DNA from: Sneathiella sp.
GTDB taxonomy: Bacteria; Pseudomonadota; Alphaproteobacteria; Sneathiellales; Sneathiellaceae
Reading direction: 5' to 3'
Length of the DNA: 64,000 nt
NCBI RefSeq assembly: GCF_029233945.1
Contig: NZ_JARGOQ010000002.1
Coordinates: 17,863 to 81,862 of the forward strand
The notes beneath the pieces are model-generated. The model made no database searches, was not told where the DNA came from, and worked only from the letters and a program-made list of their open reading frames with translations. This document shows, in pieces, positions 44,578 through 59,725 of the stretch. The position numbers and the translations under genes are program-made. The stretch's first letter is position 1. The number at the start of each line of letters is the position of its first letter.

Positions 44578-45381
44578 TTAATCTGCGGTTCGTACCCCTA
44601 TATCGGAAATAAATTCAGCAGCATACGAAAGCACATCTTCCGCCTTTTCCTGCCAGGGATTATGGCCGCAATCGTCCAAAATCAGTTTTTCGAAAGGTCC
44701 TGAAACAGCGGCTTCAATGGCATCAATTTGGGCAAGTGTGCCATAAGAGTCCTCCCGCCCCTGAATAGCAAGGAGCGGCATATTGACCGACGGCAGGAAG
44801 CTTTCAATATTCCAGTTTTTGAATGCCGGATCGAGCCAGGCGTCATTCCATCCCCGAAAAGCACATTCTGTATTTATTCCATGGAATTTTTCTAACTTTT
44901 CTTTCAAATCCCGCTGTTCATAAGCCTGCTTCGCTGTCTTAATGCCATCGACAGAGATGTCTTCGCAAAAGACATGCGGCGCCATCACAATGACGGCTTC
45001 GGGTTTGGCAACATCGGACAGGCCCGCATATATCAGGGAAATAGATGCCCCATCGGAATGGCCGACAAGAAGAGGTCTTTTTATGTTGAAATGCTCAAGG
45101 ATCACGGGAAGCATATCACTTGCTTCCCGCTCCATATAGTCAAGAGGTCTTGGCAGATCGCACGCATCAGACCCGCCGTATCCCAACCGGCTGTATATCA
45201 GTCCGGTGCAATTTGTGAGTTCACACAGGCGGTCCGGGAAGTCGCGCCAAAGCGCCGTGCAGCCGAGACCCTCATGCAAGAACACTAGAACCGGTCGCTG
45301 CGAATCCAGCGCGCCAATCGTTCGATATTCGATGCGCTTACCGGCGATTGTCGCGAGTTTTAAATCCGTCGCCGACGTCAC
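44578..45381 (-). CDS. Alpha/beta hydrolase
   Basis: 267 residues. Nucleophile elbow VGHSDGAS, oxyanion-region HEGLGCTALWRDFP, acid position near IQGREDSYG and catalytic histidine in DDCGHNPWQ define the alpha/beta fold. It overlaps mmsB by four bases, so it is translationally coupled to valine catabolism; a thioesterase-like or ester-cleaving step on a branched acid is conceivable, but no substrate can be assigned. Confidence 0.85.
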   Translation of the reverse strand: MTSATDLKLATIAGKRIEYRTIGALDSQRPVLVFLHEGLGCTALWRDFPDRLCELTNCTGLIYSRLGYGGSDACDLPRPLDYMEREASDMLPVILEHFNIKRPLLVGHSDGASISLIYAGLSDVAKPEAVIVMAPHVFCEDISVDGIKTAKQAYEQRDLKEKLEKFHGINTECAFRGWNDAWLDPAFKNWNIESFLPSVNMPLLAIQGREDSYGTLAQIDAIEAAVSGPFEKLILDDCGHNPWQEKAEDVLSYAAEFISDIGVRTAD

Positions 45382-46265
45382 GACTTCCGGATCATATTGA
45401 CTATGCCGGAAAAGTCAGCCGTTTTCCCCTCACCCGAGACATAACTCTCATAGAGATCCATCGCCGCCTTGCCAAGCTCGGTTGAAGCCCCAAATCCCTC
45501 CGCCGCTTCCTGACTGAGATGGAGGTCCTTCAGCATATTCTCTGCCGAAAACCCGGGCTTGTAGCCATTATTCGCCGGGCTAGTCGGTACCGGCCCCGGG
45601 ACAGGACAGTATGTCGTAAGCGACCAGCACTGGCCCGATGCCGTTGAGACAATATCAAACATAGTCTGATGCTCCAGCCCGAGCTTTTCTGCGAGCACGA
45701 ATGCCTCACAAACGCCGACCATTGAAATTCCGAGGATCATGTTGTTGCAGATCTTCGCCGCCTGCCCGTTCCCCGGCCCGCCGGTATGCACGATATTTGC
45801 GCCCATAGCCTCAAGGATGGGCTTTGCCGCTTCAAACGCGCCTTTGCTGCCACCGACCATAAAGGTCAGTGTTCCTGCGGCTGCGCCACCAACACCGCCG
45901 CTCACCGGGGCATCAACCATCATCATGCCGCCTGCTGACGCTTCTTTCTCAACGTCCCGGGCGGTTGCCACGTCGATAGTGGAACAATCAATAAAAAGAG
46001 TTCCCGGGTCCGCCGCAACGAGCAGCCCATCCGCCCCTAGATAAACCGCCCGGACGTGATCGCCCTTCGGCAGCATGCTGACAACAATGCCAACTCCACT
46101 AGCAGCGGCAGAGGCACTGTCCGAAGCTTCCGCGCCTTCCTTAACGCAGGCGGCAACGGCATCCGCAGACAAATCAAAAACTTTTACCGAGTGTCCGGCT
46201 TTCAGGAGGTTAAGGGCCATCGGCCCGCCCATGTTACCAACACCCACGAATCCAATTCTGGCCAT
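45378..46265 (-). CDS. mmsB: 3-hydroxyisobutyrate dehydrogenase
   Basis: 295 residues. The N-terminal Rossmann fold has IGFVGVGNMGGPMALNLLKAGHSVKVFD. The substrate motif DAPVSGGVGGAAAGTLTFMVGG, the catalytic-lysine helix GNGQAAKICNNMILGISM and the late WSLTTYCPVPGPVPTSPANNGYKPGFSAENMLKDL are the specific 3-hydroxyisobutyrate dehydrogenase pattern. It oxidises 3-hydroxyisobutyrate to methylmalonate semialdehyde with NAD+ in valine breakdown. mmsA lies immediately upstream on the same strand. Confidence 0.94.
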   Translation of the reverse strand: MARIGFVGVGNMGGPMALNLLKAGHSVKVFDLSADAVAACVKEGAEASDSASAAASGVGIVVSMLPKGDHVRAVYLGADGLLVAADPGTLFIDCSTIDVATARDVEKEASAGGMMMVDAPVSGGVGGAAAGTLTFMVGGSKGAFEAAKPILEAMGANIVHTGGPGNGQAAKICNNMILGISMVGVCEAFVLAEKLGLEHQTMFDIVSTASGQCWSLTTYCPVPGPVPTSPANNGYKPGFSAENMLKDLHLSQEAAEGFGASTELGKAAMDLYESYVSGEGKTADFSGIVNMIRKS

Positions 46266-46321: not shown

Positions 46322-47815
46322 TTATTTATGCGTCGGCATGATGAACTCGGCACCCGCCTTGATGCTATCGGGCCAACGTGAGGTAACCGTCTTCACCTTG
46401 GTATAGAACCGCACGCCTTCAGGTCCATGCTGGTTGTGATCACCGAAAGCGGAATTCTTCCAGCCACCAAAACTGTGGAAAGCCAGCGGAACCGGGATCG
46501 GCACATTCACGCCAACCATGCCGATTTCAACATTGTTGGAAAAGGCACGGGCGACATCGCCGTTTCGCGTGAAGATCGATGTCCCATTCCCAAACTCATG
46601 CTTATCGACCATCTCAATGGCGTCATTGAAAGTGGGCGCGCGCACGACGGACAGGACCGGCCCGAAGATTTCTTCTTTATAAATGCGCATTTCGGTCTGG
46701 ACATTGTCGAAAAGGCACCCGCCCATATAGAAGCCGTTTTCATACCCTTGAAGCGAGAGATCCCGGCCATCAACGACCAGATCAGCACCTTCTTCAATCC
46801 CGAGATCGACATAGCCTTTGACTTTTTCAAGATGCTCTTTCGTGACCAAAGGACCCATGTCCCCGTCAGCCGCACTCGGCCCGACTTTCAGACCGCGCAC
46901 CTTCGGTGCCAACTTCTCGATCAACTCATCACCGGCATCGCCAACGGCAACAGCAACGGAGATTGCCATGCAGCGCTCCCCGGCGGAGCCATAACCCGCA
47001 CCGATCAGCGCATCCACGGCCTTGTCCATATCCGCATCCGGCATCACCAGCATATGGTTCTTGGCACCGCCCATGGCCTGTACACGTTTTCCAGCCGCGG
47101 CGGCACGGGAGTAGACATATTTCGCGATCGGTGTGGAGCCCACGAAGCTTATCGCCTTCACCCGAGGATCATCAAGAAGGGTATCCACTGCAAGCTTGTC
47201 GCCGTTGACAACATTCAGCACACCTTTGGGTGCGCCGGCCTCAAGCATCAGCTCCCCAAGCCGCATCGGCAGAGACGGGTCTTTTTCCGACGGTTTCAGA
47301 ATAAATGTATTTCCGCAGGCAATGGCGACGGCAAACATCCACATCGGCACCATGGCCGGGAAGTTAAACGGCGTGATGCCGGCAACGACACCCAGCGGCT
47401 TACGCATGGAATACATATCAATGCCGGACGAGACATTGTCGGAGAACTCGCCTTTCAGAAGGTGCGGAATACCACAGGCAAATTCAACAACCTCAAGGCC
47501 GCGAATAATCGAGCCCTTGGCGTCGGAATGGACCTTGCCATGCTCACTCGCGAGCAATGCGGCCAATTCTTCAATATTGTCTTCGACCAGCTGTTTGAAT
47601 TTGAACATGACCCGCGCGCGGGTAATCGGTGACGTGTCCGCCCAGCCAGGAAAAGCCGCTAGGCTGTTTGCAATCGTATCGCCAATTTCAGCTTCCGTCG
47701 CGAGGTGAACATCTGCCATATGTTCACCAGTGCTTGGATTGTAAACCGGGCTGAACCGTCCGGACGTCCCGGCCACATACTGACCGCCGATATAATGCTT
47801 CAACTGTTCTGTCAT
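46322..47815 (-). CDS. mmsA: Methylmalonate-semialdehyde dehydrogenase (CoA-acylating)
   Basis: 497 residues from ATG 47815 (GGGAG is 8 bases upstream; the track's TTG at 47830 overlaps that site). Aldehyde dehydrogenase motifs: GVVAGITPFNFPAMVPMWMFAVAIACGNTFILKPSE, FVGSTPIAKYVYSRAAAAGKRVQAMGGAKNHMLVMPDAD and the catalytic cysteine in GERCMAIS. The MMSDH-specific sequence VNVPIPVPLAFHSFGGWKNSAFGDHNQHG is present. It converts methylmalonate semialdehyde to propionyl-CoA. First gene of the cluster, divergent from a LysR regulator. Confidence 0.96.
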   Translation of the reverse strand: MTEQLKHYIGGQYVAGTSGRFSPVYNPSTGEHMADVHLATEAEIGDTIANSLAAFPGWADTSPITRARVMFKFKQLVEDNIEELAALLASEHGKVHSDAKGSIIRGLEVVEFACGIPHLLKGEFSDNVSSGIDMYSMRKPLGVVAGITPFNFPAMVPMWMFAVAIACGNTFILKPSEKDPSLPMRLGELMLEAGAPKGVLNVVNGDKLAVDTLLDDPRVKAISFVGSTPIAKYVYSRAAAAGKRVQAMGGAKNHMLVMPDADMDKAVDALIGAGYGSAGERCMAISVAVAVGDAGDELIEKLAPKVRGLKVGPSAADGDMGPLVTKEHLEKVKGYVDLGIEEGADLVVDGRDLSLQGYENGFYMGGCLFDNVQTEMRIYKEEIFGPVLSVVRAPTFNDAIEMVDKHEFGNGTSIFTRNGDVARAFSNNVEIGMVGVNVPIPVPLAFHSFGGWKNSAFGDHNQHGPEGVRFYTKVKTVTSRWPDSIKAGAEFIMPTHK

Positions 47816-47851
47816 CCTATTTTCTCCCAATGAGCGCTTATTTCACGCCAC

Positions 47852-47915
47852 TTTACATAGGTAAAATTGCAAAGTAATTAGATAAGAACGCACATTCCCT
47901 GTGTAAAATTACACA
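47852..47915. promoter_or_regulatory. Probable LysR operator region between mmsA and the LysR gene
   Basis: The region holds TTTAC-ATAG-GTAAA (47852-47865) and the perfect inverted repeat TGTGTAA-AA-TTACACA (47900-47915). The string GTAAAATT appears in both, 42 bases apart (about four helical turns). The arrangement suits a LysR-type dimer-of-dimers acting on both divergent genes. Confidence 0.5.
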
Positions 47916-47928
47916 TGAGGTATTTCTT

Positions 47929-48825
47929 ATTTTTGACTGGAACGACATTCGTTTCTTTCTGGAGCTTAGCCGTAAAGGCCGCCTGACGGAAGTGGCTAAA
48001 GCACTCAAGGTAGATCATACCACTGTGGGTCGCCGGGTTCTCGCCTTGGAAGAAAAGCTGGACGCCAAATTGTTCGAGGCGACATCACGCGGATTTGTCC
48101 TGACCCAAGCGGGAGAGAGACTACTCCCGTTGGCGGAACAGATGGAGACTGCCTCCGCCTCTGTGCAGGATACGGTCGGGGGCGAAAACCAGACCCTGAC
48201 AGGGACAGTGCGCCTCGGCGTGCCGGAAGGATTTGGTAGCCAGTTTCTGTCGCAAGAGCTCGCCGCATTTCAGAAACGGCACCCAGAAATAGAGCTTGAA
48301 TTCGTCGCTAATGATCGTTTTGTCAGCCTTTCAAAGCGGGAGGCGGACCTTTCCATCACCCTCGGCCGCCCGAAATCCGGTCGTCTTATTTCCAGGAAGC
48401 TGACGGATTACCGGCTCCGGCTCTATGCCACAAAGAGCTACCTTGAAAATCATTGGCCAATCAATACGCGGGAAGATTTGCGCCATCACAACTTCATTTC
48501 TTATATCGAGGAACTGGTGCCGGACCCGCAACTTCTCTACTTGAGTGAGGTTATCGGAAACCCAAATGTCAGCCTTAAAAGCTCAAGCATTGTTTTTCAG
48601 TTTCAGGCAACCCTTGCCGGTGCCGGGATCAGTATCCTGCATTGCTTCGCCGTCGATGAATATCCTGAGCTCATTCCCATACTCCCTGATGAGATAAGCA
48701 TCGAACGAAGTTACTGGCTGAATACTCCCGAGGATATTCATGACCTTGCCCGCATCAAAGCCGTCAGCGATTTCCTGAGTGATGTTGTCGAGCAGCGCCG
48801 GGAAAAACTGATGGGCGAGAGCTAA
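47929..48825 (+). CDS. LysR-family transcriptional regulator (probable ATT start)
   Basis: 298 residues if translation starts at ATT 47929. The frame upstream of the track's GTG at 47992 encodes the expected LysR N terminus FDWNDIRFFLELSRKGRLTEVAKALKVDHTTVGRRVLALEEKL, so the track start cuts through the helix-turn-helix. No ATG, GTG or TTG is in frame; GAGG lies 8 bases before the ATT. The C-terminal effector domain contains GTVRLGVPEGFGSQFLSQELAAFQKRHPEIELEFV. It likely controls the divergent mmsA cluster; the inducer is unknown. The relation VDHTTVGRRV is typical of a large proteobacterial LysR subgroup. Confidence 0.88.
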   Translation: MFDWNDIRFFLELSRKGRLTEVAKALKVDHTTVGRRVLALEEKLDAKLFEATSRGFVLTQAGERLLPLAEQMETASASVQDTVGGENQTLTGTVRLGVPEGFGSQFLSQELAAFQKRHPEIELEFVANDRFVSLSKREADLSITLGRPKSGRLISRKLTDYRLRLYATKSYLENHWPINTREDLRHHNFISYIEELVPDPQLLYLSEVIGNPNVSLKSSSIVFQFQATLAGAGISILHCFAVDEYPELIPILPDEISIERSYWLNTPEDIHDLARIKAVSDFLSDVVEQRREKLMGES

Positions 48826-48955
48826 TCAACATATTTCTTCCCATCAGCGCCGCGTTGTATCATGCTACTGATAGTTCGATCCGGAGCGAAGCAATAACCA
48901 GAATATAAATCTATCCTTCTGGCCGTAGTCAACGCACATAACAAAGGCCAGTCTC

Positions 48956-49849
48956 ATTTCCACATTACCCGTCAATCGAACGAGAGAATATCTCCTGCTT
49001 ATCCTCCTCGCGAGCCTTTGGGGATCCTCCTATCTGCTTATCCGCATCGGCGTCGAGACAATTCCGCCAGCCTCTCTCGTAGCGCTTCGGGTATCAGTCG
49101 CGGCACTTGTCCTGCTGGTCGTTATCTGGCGACAGGGATATCGGCTGCCTAAAGATATGCCGACATGGCGGAATTTTGCGATCCAGTCTTTCTTCAACAG
49201 CTTCGGTGCCTGGACGCTTCTCGCCTGGGGCCAACAATATGTCGAGAGCGGACTAGCCTCAGTGCTGAATTCGACATCACCGATTTTCGTCTTTCTGCTG
49301 ACCTGGATCATCACGCGGCATGAGACAGTAACGGCACGAAAGATTGCAGGCGCCTTTATCGGGCTTGCGGGCGTGATCCTGATCATCGGCGTCGATGCCC
49401 TGCAAAGCCTCGGGCAGCAGGTTATCGCCCAACTCGCGATCCTCGCAAGCGCCATGCTGTATGGCTATGCGGCGATCAATGGTCGGAAGTTCGCCGCCCT
49501 TCCGCCGACCGTTACGGCGGCGGGCGTCATGATCTCGGCATCGCTGGTCCTTATTCCGGCGAGCTTGATCATTGATCAACCCTGGACACTTTCTCCCTCC
49601 ATTGAATCCCTCACCGCTGTTGTCATCCTCGGCACCTTCGGAACGGCGCTTGCTTTGCTCCTTTATTTCCGGCTGATCAATACCTTGGGGTCTCTTGGCA
49701 CTGCGAGCCAAAGCTACTTGCGAATGGGTATTGGGGTGATGCTGGGCATCGTCATCCTGGGAGAGCAGTTTTCCCTGATCGTCGGATTGGGATTGGCAAC
49801 GGCCATCCTCGGCGTCGCCCTTATCAACATACCATCCAAATCACGCTAG
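48956..49849 (+). CDS. DMT superfamily (EamA) transporter (probable ATT start)
   Basis: 297 residues if started at ATT 48956. The track start (49157) removes the first two membrane segments. Upstream codons read VNRTREYLLLILLASLWGSSYLLIRIGVETIPPASLVALRVSVAAL, a perfect EamA beginning. The frame is closed by a TAG at 48926, and only ATA/ATT codons lie between; AAAGG precedes the ATT by 8 bases. About ten membrane segments in two EamA repeats are visible. It ends four bases into the convergent mobA. Substrate unknown. Confidence 0.85.
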   Translation: MSTLPVNRTREYLLLILLASLWGSSYLLIRIGVETIPPASLVALRVSVAALVLLVVIWRQGYRLPKDMPTWRNFAIQSFFNSFGAWTLLAWGQQYVESGLASVLNSTSPIFVFLLTWIITRHETVTARKIAGAFIGLAGVILIIGVDALQSLGQQVIAQLAILASAMLYGYAAINGRKFAALPPTVTAAGVMISASLVLIPASLIIDQPWTLSPSIESLTAVVILGTFGTALALLLYFRLINTLGSLGTASQSYLRMGIGVMLGIVILGEQFSLIVGLGLATAILGVALINIPSKSR

Positions 49850-59386: not shown

Positions 59387-59725
59387 CTGGAACCCCGTCT
59401 CAAGGCTGAACTCTGGATCAAAGCCCATATCCGCAAATGCGCCACGCTTAACGTACCCGTCATGGTAACCCGGCGCGGCGATGAGACGGCGGGCTCTGTT
59501 CTGCTTAAAATAAACCGCTTGGGACCGGGCTGCATGGTTCTCTCCCCTACCACGAATTTCGAGGACGGCGCGCGTATGTGGTTAAAAGGGACGGGCTCGG
59601 ACTGGGTTGAGGAAACGGATGCCGACGCCTATATTGAAAGACGGATAAAGAATGATCCCGATCTATGGGTGCTGGAAATCGAGGATCGGGAAGGTCGCGC
59701 ATTTCTGAATGAAAAAATTGAATAA
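59387..59725 (+). CDS. DUF1491 family protein (probable CTG start)
   Basis: 112 residues if translation starts at CTG 59387. The track's ATG at 59462 loses the family's N-terminal strand, which the upstream codons encode (EPRLKAELWIKAHIRKCATLNVPVMVTRRGDETAGSVLLKINRL). The frame is closed by TAG at 59375, and no ATG/GTG/TTG lies between; AGGAG is 6 bases before the CTG. The C-terminal ETDADAYIERRIKNDPDLWVLEIEDREGRAFL is typical of DUF1491, a small alphaproteobacterial family without known function. It stands alone between tag and thyA. Confidence 0.82.
   Translation: MEPRLKAELWIKAHIRKCATLNVPVMVTRRGDETAGSVLLKINRLGPGCMVLSPTTNFEDGARMWLKGTGSDWVEETDADAYIERRIKNDPDLWVLEIEDREGRAFLNEKIE

Follow-up and report, generated by a model that had tools for sequence, protein, structure and literature searches.

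Conserved AUU start codons in a LysR-family regulator gene and an adjacent EamA transporter gene of Sneathiella

IF3 makes initiation complexes less stable when the codon is non-canonical (PMC5472188), and in E. coli infC and pcnB are said to be the only genes that start with AUU (PMC9410913). infC, which begins with AUU in E. coli and with AUC in Streptomyces, is autoregulated (PMC5472188); because its product is the discriminating factor, the start codon closes a feedback loop. In E. coli pcnB, the AUU codon limits expression according to Binns and Masters 2002, as cited in PMC9410913, and in Streptomyces sigR a GTC start is repressed by IF3 and the level of the protein is kept low (PMC5472188). 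Start-codon switches are biased back to AUG, and AUG-to-AUU switches occurred at 1 in 61,358 ancestral AUG starts (PMC5622118).

The Sneathiella locus described here resembles infC in its evolutionarily kept AUH start (AUU, AUC or AUA) with a clear Shine-Dalgarno (SD) sequence, and Sneathiella infC itself starts with AUA. infC, however, encodes the discriminating factor, whereas LysR and EamA would be no more than responders to that factor. The likeness to pcnB lies in an AUU start outside infC and in limited expression, which for Sneathiella is proposed; pcnB is a single gene for an unrelated protein whose behavior was shown experimentally, whereas our case is built on sequence comparison. 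sigR, too, codes for a transcription regulator; its non-canonical start keeps the level low, and it is misannotated in genomes (PMC5472188), but it uses GTC, serves sigma/anti-sigma ratio control and was established by experiment, while here the codon is AUH, the family is LysR and the evidence is comparative. With LysR regulators divergent from catabolic operons the locus shares domain make-up, divergent layout and, probably, a palindromic operator between the genes; it differs from them in the AUU start and in the AUU-started EamA gene downstream.

The regulator gene lies in the window, the 64,000-nucleotide stretch of Sneathiella DNA that was analysed, with the following features.

47929 to 48825, plus strand: gene for a LysR-family regulator of 298 aa, start ATT 47929-47931, stop TAA 48823-48825.
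47917 to 47920, plus strand: GAGG, the LysR Shine-Dalgarno sequence, separated from ATT by 8 nt and with a 16S-tail duplex of -6.9 kcal/mol.

Downstream of TAA 47875-47877 the frame stays open, and its earliest ATG, GTG or TTG is GTG 47992. A preliminary description of this DNA had reported both the lack of an earlier canonical start and the GAGG 8 bases before ATT 47929, and our reading bears it out on each point. It had also spoken of an annotated GTG; this codon is indeed the first canonical start of the frame, but the window itself carries no annotation and that term does not stand. Read from ATT 47929, the protein is a full LysR-type transcriptional regulator, with HTH_1 at residues 4-63 (model positions 1-60 of 60) and LysR_substrate at residues 88-286, both exceeding curated cut-offs. 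The HTH is whole only in the product that starts at ATT.

We sampled 25 Sneathiella genomes, found the orthologue in 22, and aligned the start columns at the FDWNDIRFF motif; the three genomes without an orthologue are 56-70% complete. The start column holds ATT in 10 orthologues, ATC in one, ATA in one and ATG in 10. An AUH codon is present in 12/12 species of one clade and ATG in all 10 sister species, in the very column at which the preliminary description had placed the beginning of the homologues. In a maximum-likelihood tree built without the start codon, from which an ATG row containing masked sequence was omitted, the two groups form the two sides of a single branch (support 100/100), corresponding to one change on the tree. 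ATG also occupies this column in the outgroup G058 (49% identity). Given the two-sided branch and the ATG of the outgroup, AUG is most likely ancestral and AUH of single origin. Within the AUH clade the LysR genes share 72-82% nucleotide identity with the window gene, and several of the 12 genomes are those of cultured isolates.

To locate the start of coding we compared codons pairwise in ten clade species, two with a stop or an indel being left out. For codons 1-20 the comparisons were identical in 605 cases, synonymous in 270 and non-synonymous in 25; the corresponding counts were 54, 12 and 114 for codons -4 to -1, and 411, 65 and 244 for codons -16 to -1. Coding conservation of LysR begins exactly at the ATT column, and conservation farther 5' is at the DNA level; the concern that homologues might start elsewhere was settled in favor of the ATT. 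Pairing with the 16S tail tells in the same direction. In 12/12 species the duplex before the AUH codon, at near-constant spacing, lies between -3.0 and -7.6 kcal/mol; the median is -4.3 kcal/mol for reference ATG starts and -2.9 for random positions, and alternative upstream starts in the clade reach 0 to -1.5 kcal/mol. An mRNA hairpin at the start codon was considered and set aside; it scored z = -2.0 for lysR, and none was seen for EamA. Judged from these comparisons, LysR translation almost certainly starts at AUU 47929, and it is highly probable that this start goes together with reduced initiation. With no fitting canonical start, an SD-backed AUH codon and retention across species, the gene appears to belong with the conserved AUH-start genes of the infC and pcnB kind.

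A second AUU start, which goes beyond what the preliminary description had observed and is new, is found in the gene directly 3' of lysR.

48956 to 49849, plus strand: gene for an EamA transporter of 297 aa, start ATT 48956-48958.
48943 to 48947, plus strand: AAAGG, the EamA Shine-Dalgarno sequence, separated from ATT by 8 nt.

The ATT start is present in 10/10 LysR-linked EamA orthologues, and the ATT stays constant amid variation at codons -9 to -1 and +1 to +4; in the window, the first canonical ORF start listed for this gene is ATG 49157. EamA adjoins LysR in 10 of the 12 AUH-LysR species. As for the remaining two, the contig of G011 ends early and EamA is absent within the 1.5 kb examined in G021. 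Among the ATG-LysR species, EamA beside LysR was found in 0/10. EamA homologues elsewhere in other genomes of the genus (52-59% identity) mostly have ATG near the conserved start. In G014, whose assembly does not contain LysR, the EamA gene has an ATG two codons upstream; since this EamA falls inside the ATT group, the ATG suggests a loss of AUU, and AUU is therefore not indispensable in the EamA gene. The chance that two AUU genes of ~970 would be neighbours is roughly 0.002, which is a post-hoc figure. A single operon for both AUU genes is unsupported, as EamA retains its own 5' motif across gaps of 658-1136 bp; because of this intervening sequence, lysR and EamA do not form one tight operon in some species. 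The 658-1136 bp stretches, seen at L008 and L010 between lysR and EamA and at L212 upstream of EamA, contain small genes.

The DNA around lysR and EamA holds several further elements.

47900 to 47915, no strand assigned: palindrome TGTGTAAAATTACACA, a probable operator of LysR that both start-codon groups retain.
47849 to 47876, no strand assigned: block CACTTTACATAGGTAAAATTGCAAAGTA, probable second operator part, a palindrome-related sequence conserved in 22 species.
46322 to 47815, minus strand: mmsA, methylmalonate-semialdehyde dehydrogenase (TIGR01722, 690 bits), divergent from lysR and a likely target.
45378 to 46265, minus strand: mmsB, 3-hydroxyisobutyrate dehydrogenase (TIGR01692).
48875 to 48890, no strand assigned: motif TTCGATCCGGAGCGAA upstream of EamA, kept with EamA across species.

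The block ACTTTACATRGGTA..TGCAAAGTAA and the palindrome TGTGTA-N4-TACACA are common to both start-codon groups, and together they look like a LysR operator. Gene order and this candidate operator make the divergent mms genes the probable targets of LysR. The 5' motif of EamA, TTCGATC..GCGAA, differs from the lysR-side elements and is perhaps the operator of another regulator. TTCGATCCGGAGCGAA is a near-palindrome about 65 nt before the EamA start and stays in place despite inserted lysR-EamA sequence; L010 carries a perfect palindrome version of it, TTCGATCTTGATCGAA.

With these features in mind, we propose that initiator tRNA would read AUU 47929 as fMet, the GAGG 8 nt upstream positioning the ribosome, and that EamA would initiate at its AUU in the same manner. 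The ancestral AUG would have given way once, at the base of the 12-species clade, to a codon mismatched at its third base, with AUU, AUC or AUA retained since. Initiation at both AUU codons would be inefficient and held down by IF3; LysR and EamA would be made at a low level, which would rise when IF3 is limiting. We infer IF3 sensitivity and low level because infC, pcnB and sigR behave in this way (PMC9410913, PMC5472188), and on that analogy low expression via IF3 seems the best mechanism for the AUU starts. IF3-sensitive low expression is also consistent with AUH retention across a divergent clade. On balance, the starts may well constitute an IF3-dependent throttle with a physiological role. 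The more ambitious proposal, that lysR and EamA, with what appear to be upstream signals of their own, form an IF3-responsive module outside the translation machinery that would track the IF3-to-ribosome ratio set by infC (AUA), is speculative and rather doubtful.

A different account, which we regard as possible though somewhat unlikely, accepts the AUU as real and treats it as neutral. On this view AUG would have changed to AUU once by bad luck, the cell would put up with the change since it requires little regulator, and IF3 would serve no regulatory purpose. Poor starts are perhaps tolerable in low-level regulators, the tree gives a single origin, and the EamA gene has lost AUU once. Third-position G is missing from 8 of 82 conserved fourfold LysR columns, which is not rare, and its absence at the start codon is by itself weak evidence of selection. 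This account has to contend, however, with the persistence of AUH over a clade of the divergence given above, with the same rare start in the adjacent EamA gene, and with published start-codon evolution that goes back to AUG (PMC5622118). Codon usage also weighs against it. Taking lysR and EamA together, codon 0 is ATT in 20/22 cases, although conserved internal Ile codons are mostly ATC (52 ATC, 37 ATT and 7 ATA in LysR; 29, 18 and 3 in EamA), and 1/162 conserved fourfold columns is invariant, these retention counts being drawn from related species that are not independent. Since third positions are free, codon 0 is ATT where internal codons favor ATC, and the published bias is toward AUG, the AUU has probably been kept by selection, not drift.

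It is very improbable that the Ile codon is internal and that translation begins upstream, at CTG 47899 or at a species-specific ATG or GTG, to give an N-terminal extension. The codon specifies Ile in all 12 species, the frame is open to TAA 47875 in most species, and most of the clade has CTG or ATG at codon -10, but the NTG at this position belongs to the conserved palindrome and is present also in AUG-started species. An in-frame ATG, GTG or TTG 5' of the AUH codon is absent in 7/12 clade species; the other five have an ATG or GTG somewhere upstream, none with an SD, and SD sequences are missing before every alternative. Furthermore, the frame upstream of AUH is interrupted by a stop at codon -4 in S. 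chungangensis and by a one-base shift in G023. CTG, ATG and GTG upstream starts are disfavored by these interruptions, by the missing SD and by the failure of the 5' codons to be conserved as protein. There is scarcely any likelihood that translation begins downstream, whether at GTG 47992 or at a different codon. No canonical start precedes this GTG in the window gene, but its product would lose the first 21 residues and would have a truncated HTH. Residues 1-20 include part of the HTH and are under the strong protein constraint described above, the ATG of sister species sits at the upstream position, and we rejected GTG 47992 on HTH conservation. Finally, a sequencing error, a hazard acknowledged in the preliminary description, or a broken gene, for instance through a base lost in the T run behind ATG 47915 (one extra T puts this ATG in the LysR frame), is refuted to the point of being negligible by the relatives, 12 independent genomes carrying AUH at the codon and several of them lacking ATG 47915 (ATA, ACG).

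The retention of AUU in two adjacent genes across a divergent clade, next to sister species whose regulator has AUG, amounts to an experiment of nature in which start-codon control can be compared before and after the change. Annotation is affected as well. Because the start codon is a rare ATT, the true starts of LysR and EamA are missed by standard gene finders; one limited to ATG, GTG and TTG would truncate the LysR DNA-binding domain in the window species and would drop up to 67 residues of the exporter (EamA).

We screened 971 homologous frames for coding conservation that lies 5' of all their canonical starts. The frames came from S. sedimenti (G022) and S. chungangensis (G001), with 1.2 Mb taken per species, about one-third of the two genomes. 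Nine frames were flagged, of which four hold on inspection: infC, LysR, EamA and a DUF1491 gene. The other five appeared by eye to be shadow frames, conserved leaders or effects of the region edge. Since the 971 gene pairs yielded four clear cases only, a general tolerance of odd starts by Sneathiella is unsupported. A separate two-species start-switch screen produced too much noise and was set aside, and literature searches returned nothing relevant on a LysR with an ATT start or on Sneathiella start codons. The upstream-conservation screen is applicable to any genus with several genomes and could find more such genes. Of the 24 infC loci (L060-L083), we read the 14 whose start region matched the search pattern; they represent both LysR groups, and in each of them the start codon is ATA and follows AAGGAG. 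AUH starts therefore operate in Sneathiella, and the comparative method recovers them. In most of these 14 loci the infC ATA comes directly after a stop codon. The DUF1491 gene (L238) has an apparent CTG start at window 59387-59389, after AGGAG, and its relatives have CTG, TTG or ATG at that position.
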